56,376 bases of DNA from a virus. Under the pieces are notes generated by a model that was given only the letters and a program-made list of their open reading frames with translations, was not told where the DNA came from and searched no databases. The number at the start of each line of letters is the position of its first letter. Position 1 is the first letter of the stretch. The stretch lies in IMG/VR virus record IMGVR_UViG_3300036715_000633, positions 1 through 56,376 of that record. One strand, given 5' to 3'. Shown in pieces: positions 4,610 to 35,158 of the stretch. Both the position numbers and the translations under genes were made by a program.

Positions 4610-4703
4610 TGCTAATCGCAATTGAAAACAAGCCTGCCCTGTGAAATGCGGGGCAATTCCCATAGCCCGAAACCAGCCACGCGCTGTTAAAACCGAGGTC
4701 CTC

Positions 4704-5402
4704 GTGATTAATATTCAACCCATCGACAAGAAAACCGTTTCCGACGGAACCTTCCTCGATCTGCATTCCATCTTTTATACCATCCAAGGCGAAGGTCCTT
4801 TCGCCGGTCACCCTGCCGTATTTGTTCGCCTTGCGGGCTGTAATCTTCGTTGCCCTAGCTGCGACACTGATTATACCGAAGGTCGTCGCATCGTCCACCA
4901 CAAGGACATTGTAGATGGCGTGCTGTCGTTATTCCCTACTCGCGGTCGCCTGCATAAACTTGTGGTCATCACGGGCGGCGAACCCTTCCGCCAGAACCTG
5001 ACGAAATTGGCCTATGCGCTGAATGATGCAGGTTGCCACATTCAAGTGGAAACGAATGGCTCCCTGGCGGCACAAGGCGAGTTCCCGTTCCATGATAACG
5101 CCACGATTGTGTGCAGTCCCAAATCGGGCAAAATTGCCATTCAGCATGTGGACGTCTACAAATACGTGATTGACCGTAACAGCGTCGATCCTGTGGACGG
5201 TTTGCCAATCGAGGTGCTGGGTCATTCTGCCAGCCCTCACGTTGCACGCCCGCCTGCCGATTTCGATGGTCCAATCTATGTGCAGCCGATGGACACAAAG
5301 ACGGACGCGACGAAATTAAACATCGAAGCCGCCCGCCGTATCAGCATGGACCACGGCTACATCCTGCAACTGCAAATTCACAAAATCATAGGAGTGGAAT
5401 AA
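4704..5402 (+). CDS. queE: 7-carboxy-7-deazaguanine synthase QueE
   Basis: Radical SAM enzyme that rearranges 6-carboxy-tetrahydropterin into 7-carboxy-7-deazaguanine (CDG), an intermediate in preQ0 synthesis. The radical SAM CxxxCxxC motif is Cys46, 50 and 53 in GCNLRCPSCD, preceded by the QueE-typical FYTIQGEGPFAG segment; ITGGEPFRQN provides the SAM-contacting GGE motif. Length 232 residues is normal for the family. The start chosen is GTG 4704 with GAGG five bases upstream; an in-frame ATG at 4641 overlaps the promoter region and adds residues not typical of QueE. First gene of a seven-gene 7-deazaguanine cluster, ending one codon before queC. Confidence 0.93.
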   Translation: MINIQPIDKKTVSDGTFLDLHSIFYTIQGEGPFAGHPAVFVRLAGCNLRCPSCDTDYTEGRRIVHHKDIVDGVLSLFPTRGRLHKLVVITGGEPFRQNLTKLAYALNDAGCHIQVETNGSLAAQGEFPFHDNATIVCSPKSGKIAIQHVDVYKYVIDRNSVDPVDGLPIEVLGHSASPHVARPPADFDGPIYVQPMDTKTDATKLNIEAARRISMDHGYILQLQIHKIIGVE

Positions 5403-6152
5403 ATGAAAGCCTTGGTTATCTTATCCGGTGGTCAAGATTCGACCACCTGCCTGTTTTGGGCAAAGCATTTTTACGAAGAGGTCCACGCGATTACGTTCGA
5501 CTACGGCCAGCGTCACTCCCTCGAAATCGAAGCGGCCCGTAAAGTTGCCAAGATGGCGGGCGTGGCTTCGCACGAAGTTATCGCACTGCCGAACTGCCTC
5601 GTATCGACCAGCCCGCTGACCTCAAACGAGGAACTGGAGCAATACTCCGACCATCGTCAAATGGAAACCGCCATCGGGGATCGTGTCGAAAAAACGTTCG
5701 TTCCTATGCGCAACATGCTGTTTTTCACCGTTGCAATGAATCGCGCCGTGGCGCTGGGCTGCACGCGTTTGGTAACGGGCATCTGTCAGGAAGATAACGC
5801 CAACTACCCCGACTGCACAGAAGATTTTCGCCAGCTGTTTGAGGAGACCGCAAACCAATCGCTAGGCCGAGATTCCGACCAGTTCCGAATCATCGCACCA
5901 TTAATGGATCGGTCGAAGGCTGACACCTGCAAGCTGGCGTGGTCGCTGCCCGGTTGCTGGATGGCGCTTGCGCATAGCCACACCAGCTACGACGGCAAGT
6001 ATCCGCCAACCGACATGAACCACGCCAACGTGCTGCGTGCAAAAGGCTTTGAAGATGCTGGCCTGCCCGATCCGCTGGTTGTGCGTGCATGGATGGAAGG
6101 TCTGATGCCGCTGCCGCGCACCACAAATTATAACGACGTACCGGGGGCGTAA
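5403..6152 (+). CDS. queC: 7-cyano-7-deazaguanine (preQ0) synthase QueC, zinc motif altered
   Basis: ATP-dependent amidation and dehydration of CDG to preQ0. The PP-loop SGGQDSTT (residues 8-15) and FDYGQRH (32-38) are intact, as is the closing LRAKGFEDAG...DP segment. Length is 249 residues, slightly longer than most bacterial QueC. The region that in bacterial QueC holds four zinc-binding cysteines (pattern CY.G....CG.C..C.LR) reads HTSYDGKYPPTDMNHANVLR here, with no cysteine. Either other residues (His191, His193, His207, Asp205) bind the metal or the site is lost. ATG 5403 directly follows the queE stop, with AGGAG upstream; the stop overlaps the queD start. Confidence 0.92.
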   Translation: MKALVILSGGQDSTTCLFWAKHFYEEVHAITFDYGQRHSLEIEAARKVAKMAGVASHEVIALPNCLVSTSPLTSNEELEQYSDHRQMETAIGDRVEKTFVPMRNMLFFTVAMNRAVALGCTRLVTGICQEDNANYPDCTEDFRQLFEETANQSLGRDSDQFRIIAPLMDRSKADTCKLAWSLPGCWMALAHSHTSYDGKYPPTDMNHANVLRAKGFEDAGLPDPLVVRAWMEGLMPLPRTTNYNDVPGA

Positions 6153-6619
6153 TGTATTACAGCACAAAGACCTATGGCCATGAAATTGGCTTATCCGCTG
6201 CATTTCGTCAATGGCGCGCCGAATCGCATTGCCGTCTGATCCACGGCTATTCGTTGGCGATTAAATTCGTTTTCGAGTCCGAGGACCTCGACGTTCGCAA
6301 CTGGGTTGTGGACTTCGGCAGTTTGAAGTCCCTCAAGGGTTGGCTGGAATCGACCTTTGACCACACGTTGCTGGTCGCCGAAGATGATCCCGAGAAGGAC
6401 CTTTTCGTTGCGCTCGACAACGCAGGTGTGGCGCGGATCGTTGTCGTACCCGCGACCGGCTGCGAAGCGTTTGCGGAATTAATTCACGAATGCACAACCG
6501 TGTGGTTAAAGGATAATGGCTATTCGCCGCGGGTGCGTTTGACCTCGGTAGAAGTTAAGGAACACGGTGCGAATAGTGCAATTTTTACTGGAGACAATAA
6601 ATGTCCAAACCTGTTTTGA
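6152..6619 (+). CDS. queD: 6-carboxy-tetrahydropterin synthase-like protein QueD, divergent form
   Basis: Predicted to convert dihydroneopterin triphosphate into 6-carboxy-tetrahydropterin, the QueE substrate. The 155-residue protein keeps the catalytic cysteine (Cys27 in SHCRLIHGY), the Asp70-His71 pair and a C-terminal glutamate (VEVKE, 134-137). Of the zinc triad known from E. coli QueD (His16, 31, 33), only His31 is obvious: the first falls in SAAFRQ and the third is Tyr33. His26 or other residues may substitute. The FRQWRA..HC..IHGY signature looks like a recognisable divergent QueD/PTPS subfamily. It overlaps queC by one base and folE by 19 bases. Confidence 0.88.
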   Translation: MYYSTKTYGHEIGLSAAFRQWRAESHCRLIHGYSLAIKFVFESEDLDVRNWVVDFGSLKSLKGWLESTFDHTLLVAEDDPEKDLFVALDNAGVARIVVVPATGCEAFAELIHECTTVWLKDNGYSPRVRLTSVEVKEHGANSAIFTGDNKCPNLF

Positions 6620-7182
6620 ATCTCGACCAATTCCACGAGGAAGATTTGATGCGCTTATTTTTGCAGCGCATCGCAGGCGTCAGTCCACACCGCGAAGGTC
6701 TGCAGGAAACACCTAAACGAGTAATCAAAGCGTGGCGTAAGTGGACCGAAGGTTACGAAATGAACGCCGCCGAAATCCTCAAGGTGTTTGAAGATGGCGC
6801 GGAGAATTACGACCAGATGGTGATGGTCAAAGATATTCCGATCTACAGCAAATGCGAACACCATCTGGCTGATATCTTCGGCACCTGCACGATTGCCTAC
6901 ATTCCGAATGGTAAAATTGTGGGCCTGTCGAAACTGTCGCGCCTCGCCGATATGTTTGCGCGTCGGTTGCAGGTCCAAGAACGTTTAACGCAGCAAATCG
7001 CGGACGCGTTGCAGGAACATTTGCAACCTATCGGCGTGGGCGTTATCGTTAAGGCGCGCCATATGTGCATGGAATCGCGTGGTATCTGTCAGCAAGGGCA
7101 CCACACCATTACAACAGCACTGCATGGCGCAATGAAGGACGATGCGCAAACGCGCAACGAATTTTTATCCATGGCCAAATAG
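6601..7182 (+). CDS. folE: GTP cyclohydrolase I (type IA)
   Basis: Converts GTP to dihydroneopterin triphosphate, the entry step to preQ0. The 193-residue protein has all hallmarks: zinc ligands Cys85 and His88 in KCEHHL, Cys156 in HMCMESRG, and the conserved VGLSKLSRL segment (107-115). ATG 6601 lies inside queD with GGAG at 6590. A phage-borne folE lets the pathway run from GTP without depending on host folate enzymes. Confidence 0.95.
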   Translation: MSKPVLNLDQFHEEDLMRLFLQRIAGVSPHREGLQETPKRVIKAWRKWTEGYEMNAAEILKVFEDGAENYDQMVMVKDIPIYSKCEHHLADIFGTCTIAYIPNGKIVGLSKLSRLADMFARRLQVQERLTQQIADALQEHLQPIGVGVIVKARHMCMESRGICQQGHHTITTALHGAMKDDAQTRNEFLSMAK

Positions 7183-7190
7183 GAGCAATC

Positions 7191-7835
7191 ATGGCGCAAA
7201 ATGATTCATTGGACAAAGTTATTCCGACGTACTTTGGCGCCTTTGCCACTGTGCCTTTTGTCTGGAAAAACAAGGAATATCGCCCGCGGACGCTTCGCGT
7301 GTCGCCGCATCTGGCTAGAGGGCTTTCGTGTCCTCCGATGTGCGGTGGCTGCTGTCCTAAATTCTCGTTGGATTATTTGCCATTTGAGGATAAACCATAC
7401 GACCTCGTGGAGCGCGAAGTTACCATTTTGGGTAAAACGTTTTCGGTGTTTTCGGATACGCAAAAAGGTAATTATACCAGCCGTTGCAAAAACGTCCGAC
7501 TTGATGACGGTCGGTGCTCCATTCACGGCAAACAGCCCTTTTCGTGCGATTTTGAGATAATCAGGGTTAAACATTTCAACGACCTGACTATGCCAAATCA
7601 AGTTTTGACAGCGCCATATGGACGCGGTTGGCAGTTGTTCCGCGTTGATAATAAAATGGGCGCACTGTGCGGCATCGAGGATGCTACGCAAGAAAATGCC
7701 AACGAGGCTGCGCGAAAATTGCGACGACTCAAAGGGTGGATGGAATACTTTGAAATTCCCCACAAATGTGACCGCGCCATCGCCTATCTGGAAAATGGCG
7801 AATGGAAAAACAATCAACCTATTTTCATCAACTGA
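7191..7835 (+). CDS. YkgJ-like cysteine-cluster (CxxxCxxCC) protein within the 7-deazaguanine operon
   Basis: A 214-residue protein resembling the zinc/iron-chelating YkgJ family. It has a CxxxCxxCC cluster (Cys47, 51, 54, 55) followed by Cys99, 109 and 119 in a C...DGRCSIH...PFSCD arrangement typical of that family, plus Cys160. This is enough for an Fe-S cluster or zinc site. Start ATG 7191 follows AGGAG, 8 bases after folE. No step from GTP to preQ1 needs it, since folE, queD, queE, queC and queF are all present. Its place before queF and dpdA suggests tailoring of preQ1 in DNA or as a free base. A dPreQ1 methyltransferase (DpdM) has been reported from phages; I cannot confirm that this is that family. 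Confidence 0.8.
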   Translation: MAQNDSLDKVIPTYFGAFATVPFVWKNKEYRPRTLRVSPHLARGLSCPPMCGGCCPKFSLDYLPFEDKPYDLVEREVTILGKTFSVFSDTQKGNYTSRCKNVRLDDGRCSIHGKQPFSCDFEIIRVKHFNDLTMPNQVLTAPYGRGWQLFRVDNKMGALCGIEDATQENANEAARKLRRLKGWMEYFEIPHKCDRAIAYLENGEWKNNQPIFIN

Positions 7836-7841
7836 CCTAAC

Positions 7842-8351
7842 ATGAACTCCTCCAAACACTTATCCGAAAACCTGCAAGCGCTGGGCAGCGAAAAGACCGC
7901 GTATTCTTACGACGCGCCGCGTAGCGCGTTGCTCGAAACGTTCCCTAGCCCAACAGCCGACAACGCGCTGAACCCGCACAGCGCCGCGCAAACGCTGCAA
8001 ATTCGCTGCCCTGAATTTACCAGCCTTTGCCCTAAAACGGGCCAGCCTGATTTCGCCACCATCGTTATCGAATACGAAGCCGACAAGGTTTGCGTGGAAT
8101 CTAAGTCGCTTAAACTGTACCTGGGTTCGTTCCGTATGTCCGGCGAGTTTCACGAGGCTTGTGTTAATCGCATCTGTAACGACCTCGTGACCCTGCTGGA
8201 TCCGAAATGGATCATGGTTCGCGGTGAATTCACTCCACGCGGCGGGATCCCGTTCTGGCCGACTAGCACCTGGCATCGTCGCCATGAAGGCTTTGGCGCA
8301 ATTGGTCACGACCTGCAAGCCCCTGGCTTGAATATGGCTTACGAAGGTTAA
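7842..8351 (+). CDS. queF: NADPH-dependent preQ0 reductase QueF (unimodular)
   Basis: Reduces the nitrile of preQ0 to the aminomethyl of preQ1. At 169 residues it has the size of the one-domain Bacillus-type enzyme. Key features are the CPEFTSLCPKTGQPDF block with catalytic Cys63 and Asp70, ESKSLKLYLGSFR (86-98), which binds NADPH, FHE (103-105), and FTPRGGI. A phage-encoded QueF means the base offered to DpdA is probably preQ1 or a derivative, not preQ0. ATG 7842 has no clear ribosome-binding site and lies 6 bases after the preceding stop, so translation is probably coupled. Confidence 0.95.
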   Translation: MNSSKHLSENLQALGSEKTAYSYDAPRSALLETFPSPTADNALNPHSAAQTLQIRCPEFTSLCPKTGQPDFATIVIEYEADKVCVESKSLKLYLGSFRMSGEFHEACVNRICNDLVTLLDPKWIMVRGEFTPRGGIPFWPTSTWHRRHEGFGAIGHDLQAPGLNMAYEG

Positions 8352-8355
8352 ACGA

Positions 8356-9285
8356 ATGCGCCTATTCTTTTCAGGATTTGGCGCGCACGATATCGACTTG
8401 GACCCGCGTATTCCGCGTGGTCCTCGTTATCGTCTGCTGTCATGCCACGAGGAATATTTGCGCGTGGCTCACGAATTTTCCACTGACCTCTGCACGTCCA
8501 TGGAGGACCCTTTTGAACTGATGTACGACTCGGGCGCATTTACTGCCTGGAGCAAAGGGAAGGAAGTGGTGCTGGATGATCTAATCCGCGTGTATGACGA
8601 AATGATGGGCTTGTATTCTCACCGTGCAGCTAACGTGTGGTTAATTTCGCTTGATAAGATTCCCGGGTCGCCAGGGCGTACGGCAGGGCCTGCGGAGATT
8701 GAAGATTGCTGCCGCATATCAGACGAGAATTACAGTATTCTGGAGAAACGTTATGGGCAGCGTGTTTTACCTGTATTCCACCAGAATGAATCAACCGCCC
8801 GCTTGCACGAAGTCGCGGCGATGGCGCCTTATATTTGCGTATCCCCTCGAAACGATTTGCACGAAACCGCACGCGTGCGTTGGTCCGCCGAGGTTCACGC
8901 ACAAATCCCAGGCAAGGATACGCACGGACTTGCTGCCACAGGTTATACCATGATGACCACAATACCATGGGGTAGCGTCGATTCCGCGTCCTGGATTTTC
9001 TGCGCAACCAACGGTGGCGTTATTCGAGACCACCACCTGCGCGTATTGCAAATGTCGGACAAATCATCCGCGCTGAAAAACACGGATCAACACTTCAAAA
9101 CATTACCCATACCACTACAGGAAACCTTCCGCGCATTTGTTGAGGCTCGCGGTTTTACAGTTGAAGGATTGGCTGAAAGTTTCCGCGAACGGCTGGTGTG
9201 GAACCGTGTTATGATTACTGAATTGTATCAATCTATTCCACAAAAACCTGACATCCCAATGGAAGTTGGTTTGTTCGATCTGTAA
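8356..9285 (+). CDS. dpdA: DNA 7-deazaguanine transglycosylase DpdA (phage type)
   Basis: TGT-related enzyme that swaps guanine in DNA for a 7-deazaguanine base. The 309-residue protein shows the TGT-like YDSGAFTAW segment (Asp58), PVFHQN (139-144), an ICVSPRND strand (160-167), HGLAATG (190-196) and SVDSASWIF (208-215), where Asp209 is the expected nucleophile. It lacks the tRNA-binding zinc site of bacterial TGT, as DNA-acting members do. It closes the deazaguanine block directly after queF and before the clamp and polymerase genes. Function is assigned from motif and operon context; the exact base inserted is unknown. Confidence 0.9.
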   Translation: MRLFFSGFGAHDIDLDPRIPRGPRYRLLSCHEEYLRVAHEFSTDLCTSMEDPFELMYDSGAFTAWSKGKEVVLDDLIRVYDEMMGLYSHRAANVWLISLDKIPGSPGRTAGPAEIEDCCRISDENYSILEKRYGQRVLPVFHQNESTARLHEVAAMAPYICVSPRNDLHETARVRWSAEVHAQIPGKDTHGLAATGYTMMTTIPWGSVDSASWIFCATNGGVIRDHHLRVLQMSDKSSALKNTDQHFKTLPIPLQETFRAFVEARGFTVEGLAESFRERLVWNRVMITELYQSIPQKPDIPMEVGLFDL

Positions 9286-34973: not shown

Positions 34974-35158
34974 TCGTATTCAGTGCATCCCACAGCAATG
35001 ACATGAGCAGGGGGACGAGCCTTATAGACCGTGCAAAGCTCCTCCTGCTTTTTAAAGTGCTCGCAGTTCATGCAGGACTGCCACACATGTGCACGCAGCG
35101 CCTCACGTTGAAACTCCAGACGGCGTGCAACGTACTCCTTGGAATCACGCACGATCAA
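34955..35158 (-). CDS. Small four-cysteine zinc-binding-like protein
   Basis: A 67-residue protein with CMNCEHF...ELC...VGC (Cys at about residues 29, 32, 41 and 57), a likely one-zinc fold seen in small phage proteins. It overlaps the genes on both sides by 14-19 bases. Function unknown. Confidence 0.65.
   Translation of the reverse strand: MIVRDSKEYVARRLEFQREALRAHVWQSCMNCEHFKKQEELCTVYKARPPAHVIAVGCTEYEWEIPF

Follow-up and report, generated by a model that had tools for sequence, protein, structure and literature searches.

The methylated base mdPreQ1 has reportedly been found in phage DNA, and DpdM is said to be an experimentally validated dPreQ1 methylase with a fold new among nucleic-acid methylases, both in the work of Cui and colleagues. 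Other phages carry dPreQ1 itself, as in the DNA of Dp-1 and HVTV-1 (PMC6884629) and in that of phage 6E351A, where dPreQ1 (295 Da) amounts to 15% of dG (PMC12028318). For the chemistry of amine methylation, the nearest described system is FliB of Salmonella, which methylates the lysine amine (-CH2-NH2) using S-adenosylmethionine (SAM) and a [4Fe-4S] cluster; the cluster is bound on a PF03692-like CX4CX3CC motif, and eight cysteines of the protein are conserved (PMC8598068). Here we describe a phage gene that appears to bring these two settings together, as a cysteine-cluster protein encoded within a 7-deazaguanine operon.

The operon and the gene between folE and queF

The window analysed here is a 56,376-nt stretch corresponding to the whole virus record, which encodes a DNA polymerase, a primase, a helicase, a ligase and an SSB, and for which no close relative was found in the phage records searched. 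It carries a tight operon in the order queE-queC-queD-folE-[7191-7835 gene]-queF-dpdA (Table 1). The first-pass annotation had listed all enzymes from GTP to preQ1 together with the inserter DpdA, and this is borne out by Pfam for QueE, QueC, QueD, FolE and QueF and by PHROGs for DpdA. It had also placed a CxxxCxxCC protein tightly between folE and queF, and the cysteines (C47, C51, C54 and C55) and the spacing, 8 nt from the folE stop and 6 nt to the queF start, agree with this. The open reading frame at 7191-7835 (+) is a real gene, with 214 codons, a stop-free translation and an AGGAG site 5 nt upstream of its ATG, and in the family the first and second codon positions are conserved and the third is saturated. 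No methyltransferase domain was found in the subset of window ORFs scanned with Pfam or PHROGs.

Table 1. Genes of the 7-deazaguanine operon and invariant cysteines of the cysteine-cluster protein, in window coordinates
Feature	Position	Strand	Remark
queE, radical SAM	4689..5402, start possibly 4641	+	Pfam
queC	5403..6152	+	Pfam
queD (PTPS)	6152..6619	+	Pfam
folE, GTP cyclohydrolase I	6601..7182	+	Pfam
cysteine-cluster protein gene, 214 aa	7191..7835	+	proposed preQ1/dPreQ1 N-methyltransferase, DpdM-type
CxxxCxxCC motif (C47, C51, C54, C55), proposed [4Fe-4S] ligands	7329..7355	+	invariant in 42 members
C99, C109 (GRCxIH motif), C119 (PFSCDFE motif)	7485..7547	+	all invariant; order as FliB C82, C91, C106
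C160, eighth invariant cysteine	7668..7670	+	counterpart by order is FliB C128
queF, preQ0 reductase making preQ1	7842..8351	+	Pfam, 107.5 bits
dpdA, DNA-guanine transglycosylase inserting the base	8356..9285	+	PHROGs match is queuine tRNA-ribosyltransferase

The cysteine-cluster family, PF03692 and FliB

Homologues with some 30-58% identity occur in phages, viral contigs and metagenome-assembled genomes (MAGs). By tblastn, 27 phage records carry the family, among them Pseudanabaena phage Pan1 (46% identity), Mycobacterium phage Knocker (40%), seven Cellulophaga records (33%) and 18 Vibrio records (26-40%), and profile searches added a further 41 viral contigs and seven MAG loci. In the 214-aa window protein the motif reads C47-PPM-C51-GG-C54-C55, and an alignment of 42 members shows invariant cysteines at eight positions (47, 51, 54, 55, 99, 109, 119 and 160), along with invariant K9, Y14, Q91, P116 and E122. 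Some loci depart from the usual form. For example, Vibrio T4-like phages (L004:6992-7906 of VH7D, L005 and L006) have a 304-335-aa version with large insertions, which lies away from the main cluster and is patchy among close relatives. A viral contig (L047) and a Smithella MAG contig (L054), which agree in the N-terminal sequence of the protein, each have the gene broken into two open frames, reflecting either genuine decay or an assembly error. A Syntrophobacteraceae MAG has tandem and extra copies (L052:266-910 and about 1099-1893, plus L050), the pathway genes being absent within those short contigs. In the window itself, a weak partial PF03692 match (20 bits) falls at 35009-35125 (-), in an 82-aa open frame adjoining a PDDEXK endonuclease gene.

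The window protein has a PF03692-type motif followed by downstream cysteines. Its score against PF03692 (CxxCxxCC) was 22.7 bits in hmmscan, against a cut-off of 23, and 24.1 bits in the genome scan, and 36 of the 42 family members matched at E<=0.01, the best at 9.4e-8; in the YkgJ profile comparison that had been proposed earlier, the window protein is borderline and most of its relatives match. A profile-profile alignment with YkgJ (hhalign) gave an E value of 0.00056, at a low probability, over CxxCC...C...C-I-H/Y...C. Judged by these profile matches and aligned cysteine motifs, shared with E. coli YkgJ, the family appears to be a distant member of PF03692. In contrast to YkgJ, the window-family protein is twice as long, shows conservation in N- and C-terminal regions that the Pfam domain does not cover and is linked to 7-deazaguanine genes.

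The likeness to FliB lies mainly in the cysteines. In eight FliB homologues retrieved with NF038110, exactly eight cysteines are invariant, and they follow the order of the window family (4+1+1+1+1, starting with Cx(3-4)Cx(2-3)CC near the N terminus); several of these homologues have a C-x-I-H/Q-like motif. PF03692 is likewise matched by some members, since among three FliB proteins one scored above the cut-off and one had no match. Aligned with hhalign, the family and FliB have their motifs in register (E 0.0048, with a probability of only 7%), and because the hhalign probabilities are low, this link is suggestive. FliB differs from the window family in being twice as long, with a long C-terminal part, in acting on a protein and in its distant sequence. 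No NCBIfam family was matched by the window protein or its relatives; the curated FliB model NF038110 in particular was matched by none of the 42 members, which places the window protein outside FliB proper, although its mode of action may be similar.

An AlphaFold2 model of the protein was confident (pLDDT 95.3, pTM 0.90), so the structure prediction called for at the outset succeeded as far as the model itself; a Foldseek search of the PDB with this model returned no match at E<=0.001. This absence fits the fold said to set DpdM apart from other nucleic-acid methylases. Searching PDB sequences with the protein, and with each of the two profiles, produced chance matches only, and in a structure search of a viral library three proteins were the sole significant matches, equal in length to the homologues from Knocker, the VH7D group and phiSM. 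None of the 42 members matched a methyltransferase Pfam domain, and no recognised SAM-binding motif was found in the cysteine protein. A radical SAM assignment was considered for the CX3CX2C spacing and was rejected, as there was no PF04055 match and the secondary structure of the model does not form a beta/alpha barrel.

Dependence on QueF and dispensability for preQ1

We scored the neighbourhoods of the family loci with HMMs derived from cluster proteins. Most of the 41 family-positive viral contigs have genes for FolE, QueC, QueD, QueE, QueF and DpdA around the family gene, in an order that varies widely. The family co-occurs with DpdA of the window type or of the DpdA2 type and with clusters containing DUF6610 proteins, and is therefore not tied to one inserter. 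QueF, on the other hand, is encoded by all 27 family-positive phage records; in VH7D, QD01, D484, L013 and L028 it lies outside the fetched stretch, elsewhere in the same record, and the sole one without it among 14 records checked is an 18-kb fragment. Among contigs sampled through QueC or DpdA, the family was present in 11 of 86 QueF+ and 0 of 73 QueF- loci (Fisher p = 0.001, in a test that ignores relatedness and in which some contigs recur); the QueC-based sample alone has no family member, so that its contribution is limited to the background counts of QueF- and QueF+ loci. All 18 gene-bearing records of Vibrio T4-like phages have QueF, and phages nt-1 and CZ01, which gave no match in the QueF search, have no family gene either. 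Many QueF+ phages of this group lack the family gene, including KVP40, 6E35.1a and D490. At five MAG loci (L048-L050, L052 and L053) pathway genes were not found nearby, and a clear QueF is absent from the MAGs of L048 and L049, which may be incomplete. Taken together, these data make the family dependent on QueF, the enzyme that produces preQ1.

This dependence does not extend in the other direction. The Vibrio phage record 6E35.1a, taken to be phage 6E351A, encodes QueF and DpdA and has no homologue of the cysteine protein, and tblastn of the phage records found none in Dp-1 or HVTV-1. Since these three dPreQ1 phages lack it, the cysteine protein is not needed for preQ1, as the first-pass annotation had maintained, and QueF dependence combined with dispensability therefore indicates an optional step that follows preQ1 in the pathway. 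The gene is patchy among QueF+ phages, and in L157, whose DpdA is the closest (75%), the folE-queF slot (6992-7396) holds a nucleoside 2-deoxyribosyltransferase-like protein instead; it follows that the cysteine-protein gene is an exchangeable add-on downstream of preQ1. The slot protein of L157 matches PF05014 below the cut-off and possibly represents an alternative tailoring or salvage step.

A separate observation concerns DUF6610 (PF20314), which is often fused to a ParB_N domain (L031:7170-8432, L024:7185-8960, L041:7047-8549, L002:1-1314, L048:1201-1920(-) and L049:6898-8007). The clusters of L024, L031 and L041 have QueF and DUF6610 without a recognisable DpdA, and a DUF6610 model (pLDDT 65) resembles ParB_N plus a TIM-barrel-like domain, making the DUF6610 protein a candidate divergent DpdA. 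In two bacterial MAGs from different phyla, the DUF6610 protein adjoins the cysteine protein, as part of a common module (L048:1916-2827(-) and L049:6427-7281(-)) that also includes a membrane-like protein of about 300 aa without a Pfam match.

Proposed N-methylation of preQ1 and its alternatives

In the pathway that we propose, FolE, QueD, QueE and QueC would lead to preQ0, QueF would convert preQ0 to preQ1 (7-aminomethyl-7-deazaguanine) and DpdA would swap preQ1 into DNA. The cysteine-cluster protein would then provide the last, optional step of phage 7-deazaguanine DNA modification, moving a methyl group from SAM to the exocyclic aminomethyl nitrogen of either the preQ1 free base or dPreQ1 in DNA, with 7-(methylamino)methyl-7-deazaguanine (mdPreQ1) as the proposed product, which is the DpdM activity. 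As in FliB, a [4Fe-4S] cluster would probably sit on the CxxxCxxCC cysteines. Because lysine and preQ1 both offer a -CH2-NH2 group, the primary amine on which FliB acts, and because the eight cysteines are FliB-like, we infer N-methylation by analogy, and with it the use of SAM and the Fe-S cluster. We give the reading of the protein as an optional N-methylase of the preQ1 aminomethyl group, acting last in the pathway with DpdM activity, a probability of roughly three in four. The earlier suggestion that the protein changes preQ1 by methylation or formylation is thus retained in that preQ1 or dPreQ1 is its most likely target, and methylation is preferred to formylation.

The window protein is most likely a DpdM, the methylase reported by Cui and colleagues, and the supposition that the tailoring step was new was not upheld. 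Like DpdM, the window gene comes from a phage that also encodes QueF and the inserter DpdA, its proposed product is an N-methylated preQ1, and its model lacks a known nucleic-acid methylase fold by Foldseek against the PDB. The family also occurs in Cellulophaga phage phi38:2, which encodes a member by tblastn and which, according to PMC11515303, is one of the phages of Cui et al. 2023, with 7-deazaguanine-modified DNA. The phiSM copy is identical to that of phi38:2, and no further unassigned enzyme-like gene remains in the phiSM cluster. The broader idea that DpdM-type proteins are FliB-like [4Fe-4S], SAM-dependent amine methylases is tentative, with the odds somewhat against it.

fdPreQ1 has also been reported from phages, and formylation has a separate enzyme, DpdN. 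The same cysteine cluster might tailor preQ1 or dPreQ1 by adding, in place of methyl, a formyl, aminocarboxypropyl or other group, a reading which also fits the linkage and the QueF dependence and for which fdPreQ1 offers a phage precedent; we consider it unlikely, given that formylation is assigned to DpdN and that FliB, the sole characterised relative found with such a cysteine pattern, is an amine methylase. Aminocarboxypropyl transfer is conceivable because FliB can break SAM at the other S-C bond as well, yielding MTA (PMC8598068).

Pfam describes the cysteine-rich PF03692 as a putative metal-chelating domain and the radical SAM enzyme QueE requires an Fe-S cluster, both of which would suit a protein that tailors nothing and serves as an Fe-S or metal accessory for QueE or for QueF/DpdA. 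Such a role is improbable in view of the family's absence from every QueF- locus sampled via QueC or DpdA, and the invariant K9, Y14, Q91 and E122 suggest an active site. Maturation of QueE or DpdA is disfavoured because most clusters lack the gene, including most QueF+ ones and the phages with measured dPreQ1. That the protein is an unrelated traveller, such as an anti-restriction or regulatory protein, is very improbable, for although in the VH7D group some 34 kb separate the gene and the QueF locus, and five MAG loci have no pathway genes nearby, the VH7D-group genomes still encode QueF and DpdA, and hitch-hiking poorly explains repeated placement in reshuffled clusters of unrelated phages.

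With the protein read as an optional N-methylase, the recurrent hypothetical or YkgJ gene of phage 7-deazaguanine clusters would be explained as optional post-preQ1 tailoring, and the final DNA base would become predictable from the genes, QueF alone giving dPreQ1 and QueF together with the cysteine-protein gene giving mdPreQ1. The eight-cysteine pattern common with FliB would supply a concrete mechanism for a methylase family without a known fold and offer a clue to what the broad PF03692 family does. Should DpdM-type proteins indeed be FliB-like amine methylases, PF03692 would amount to a non-Rossmann superfamily of methyltransferases, widespread and with both protein lysines and modified DNA bases as substrates, and amine methylation would become a candidate function for many bacterial and archaeal YkgJ proteins that are still uncharacterised.
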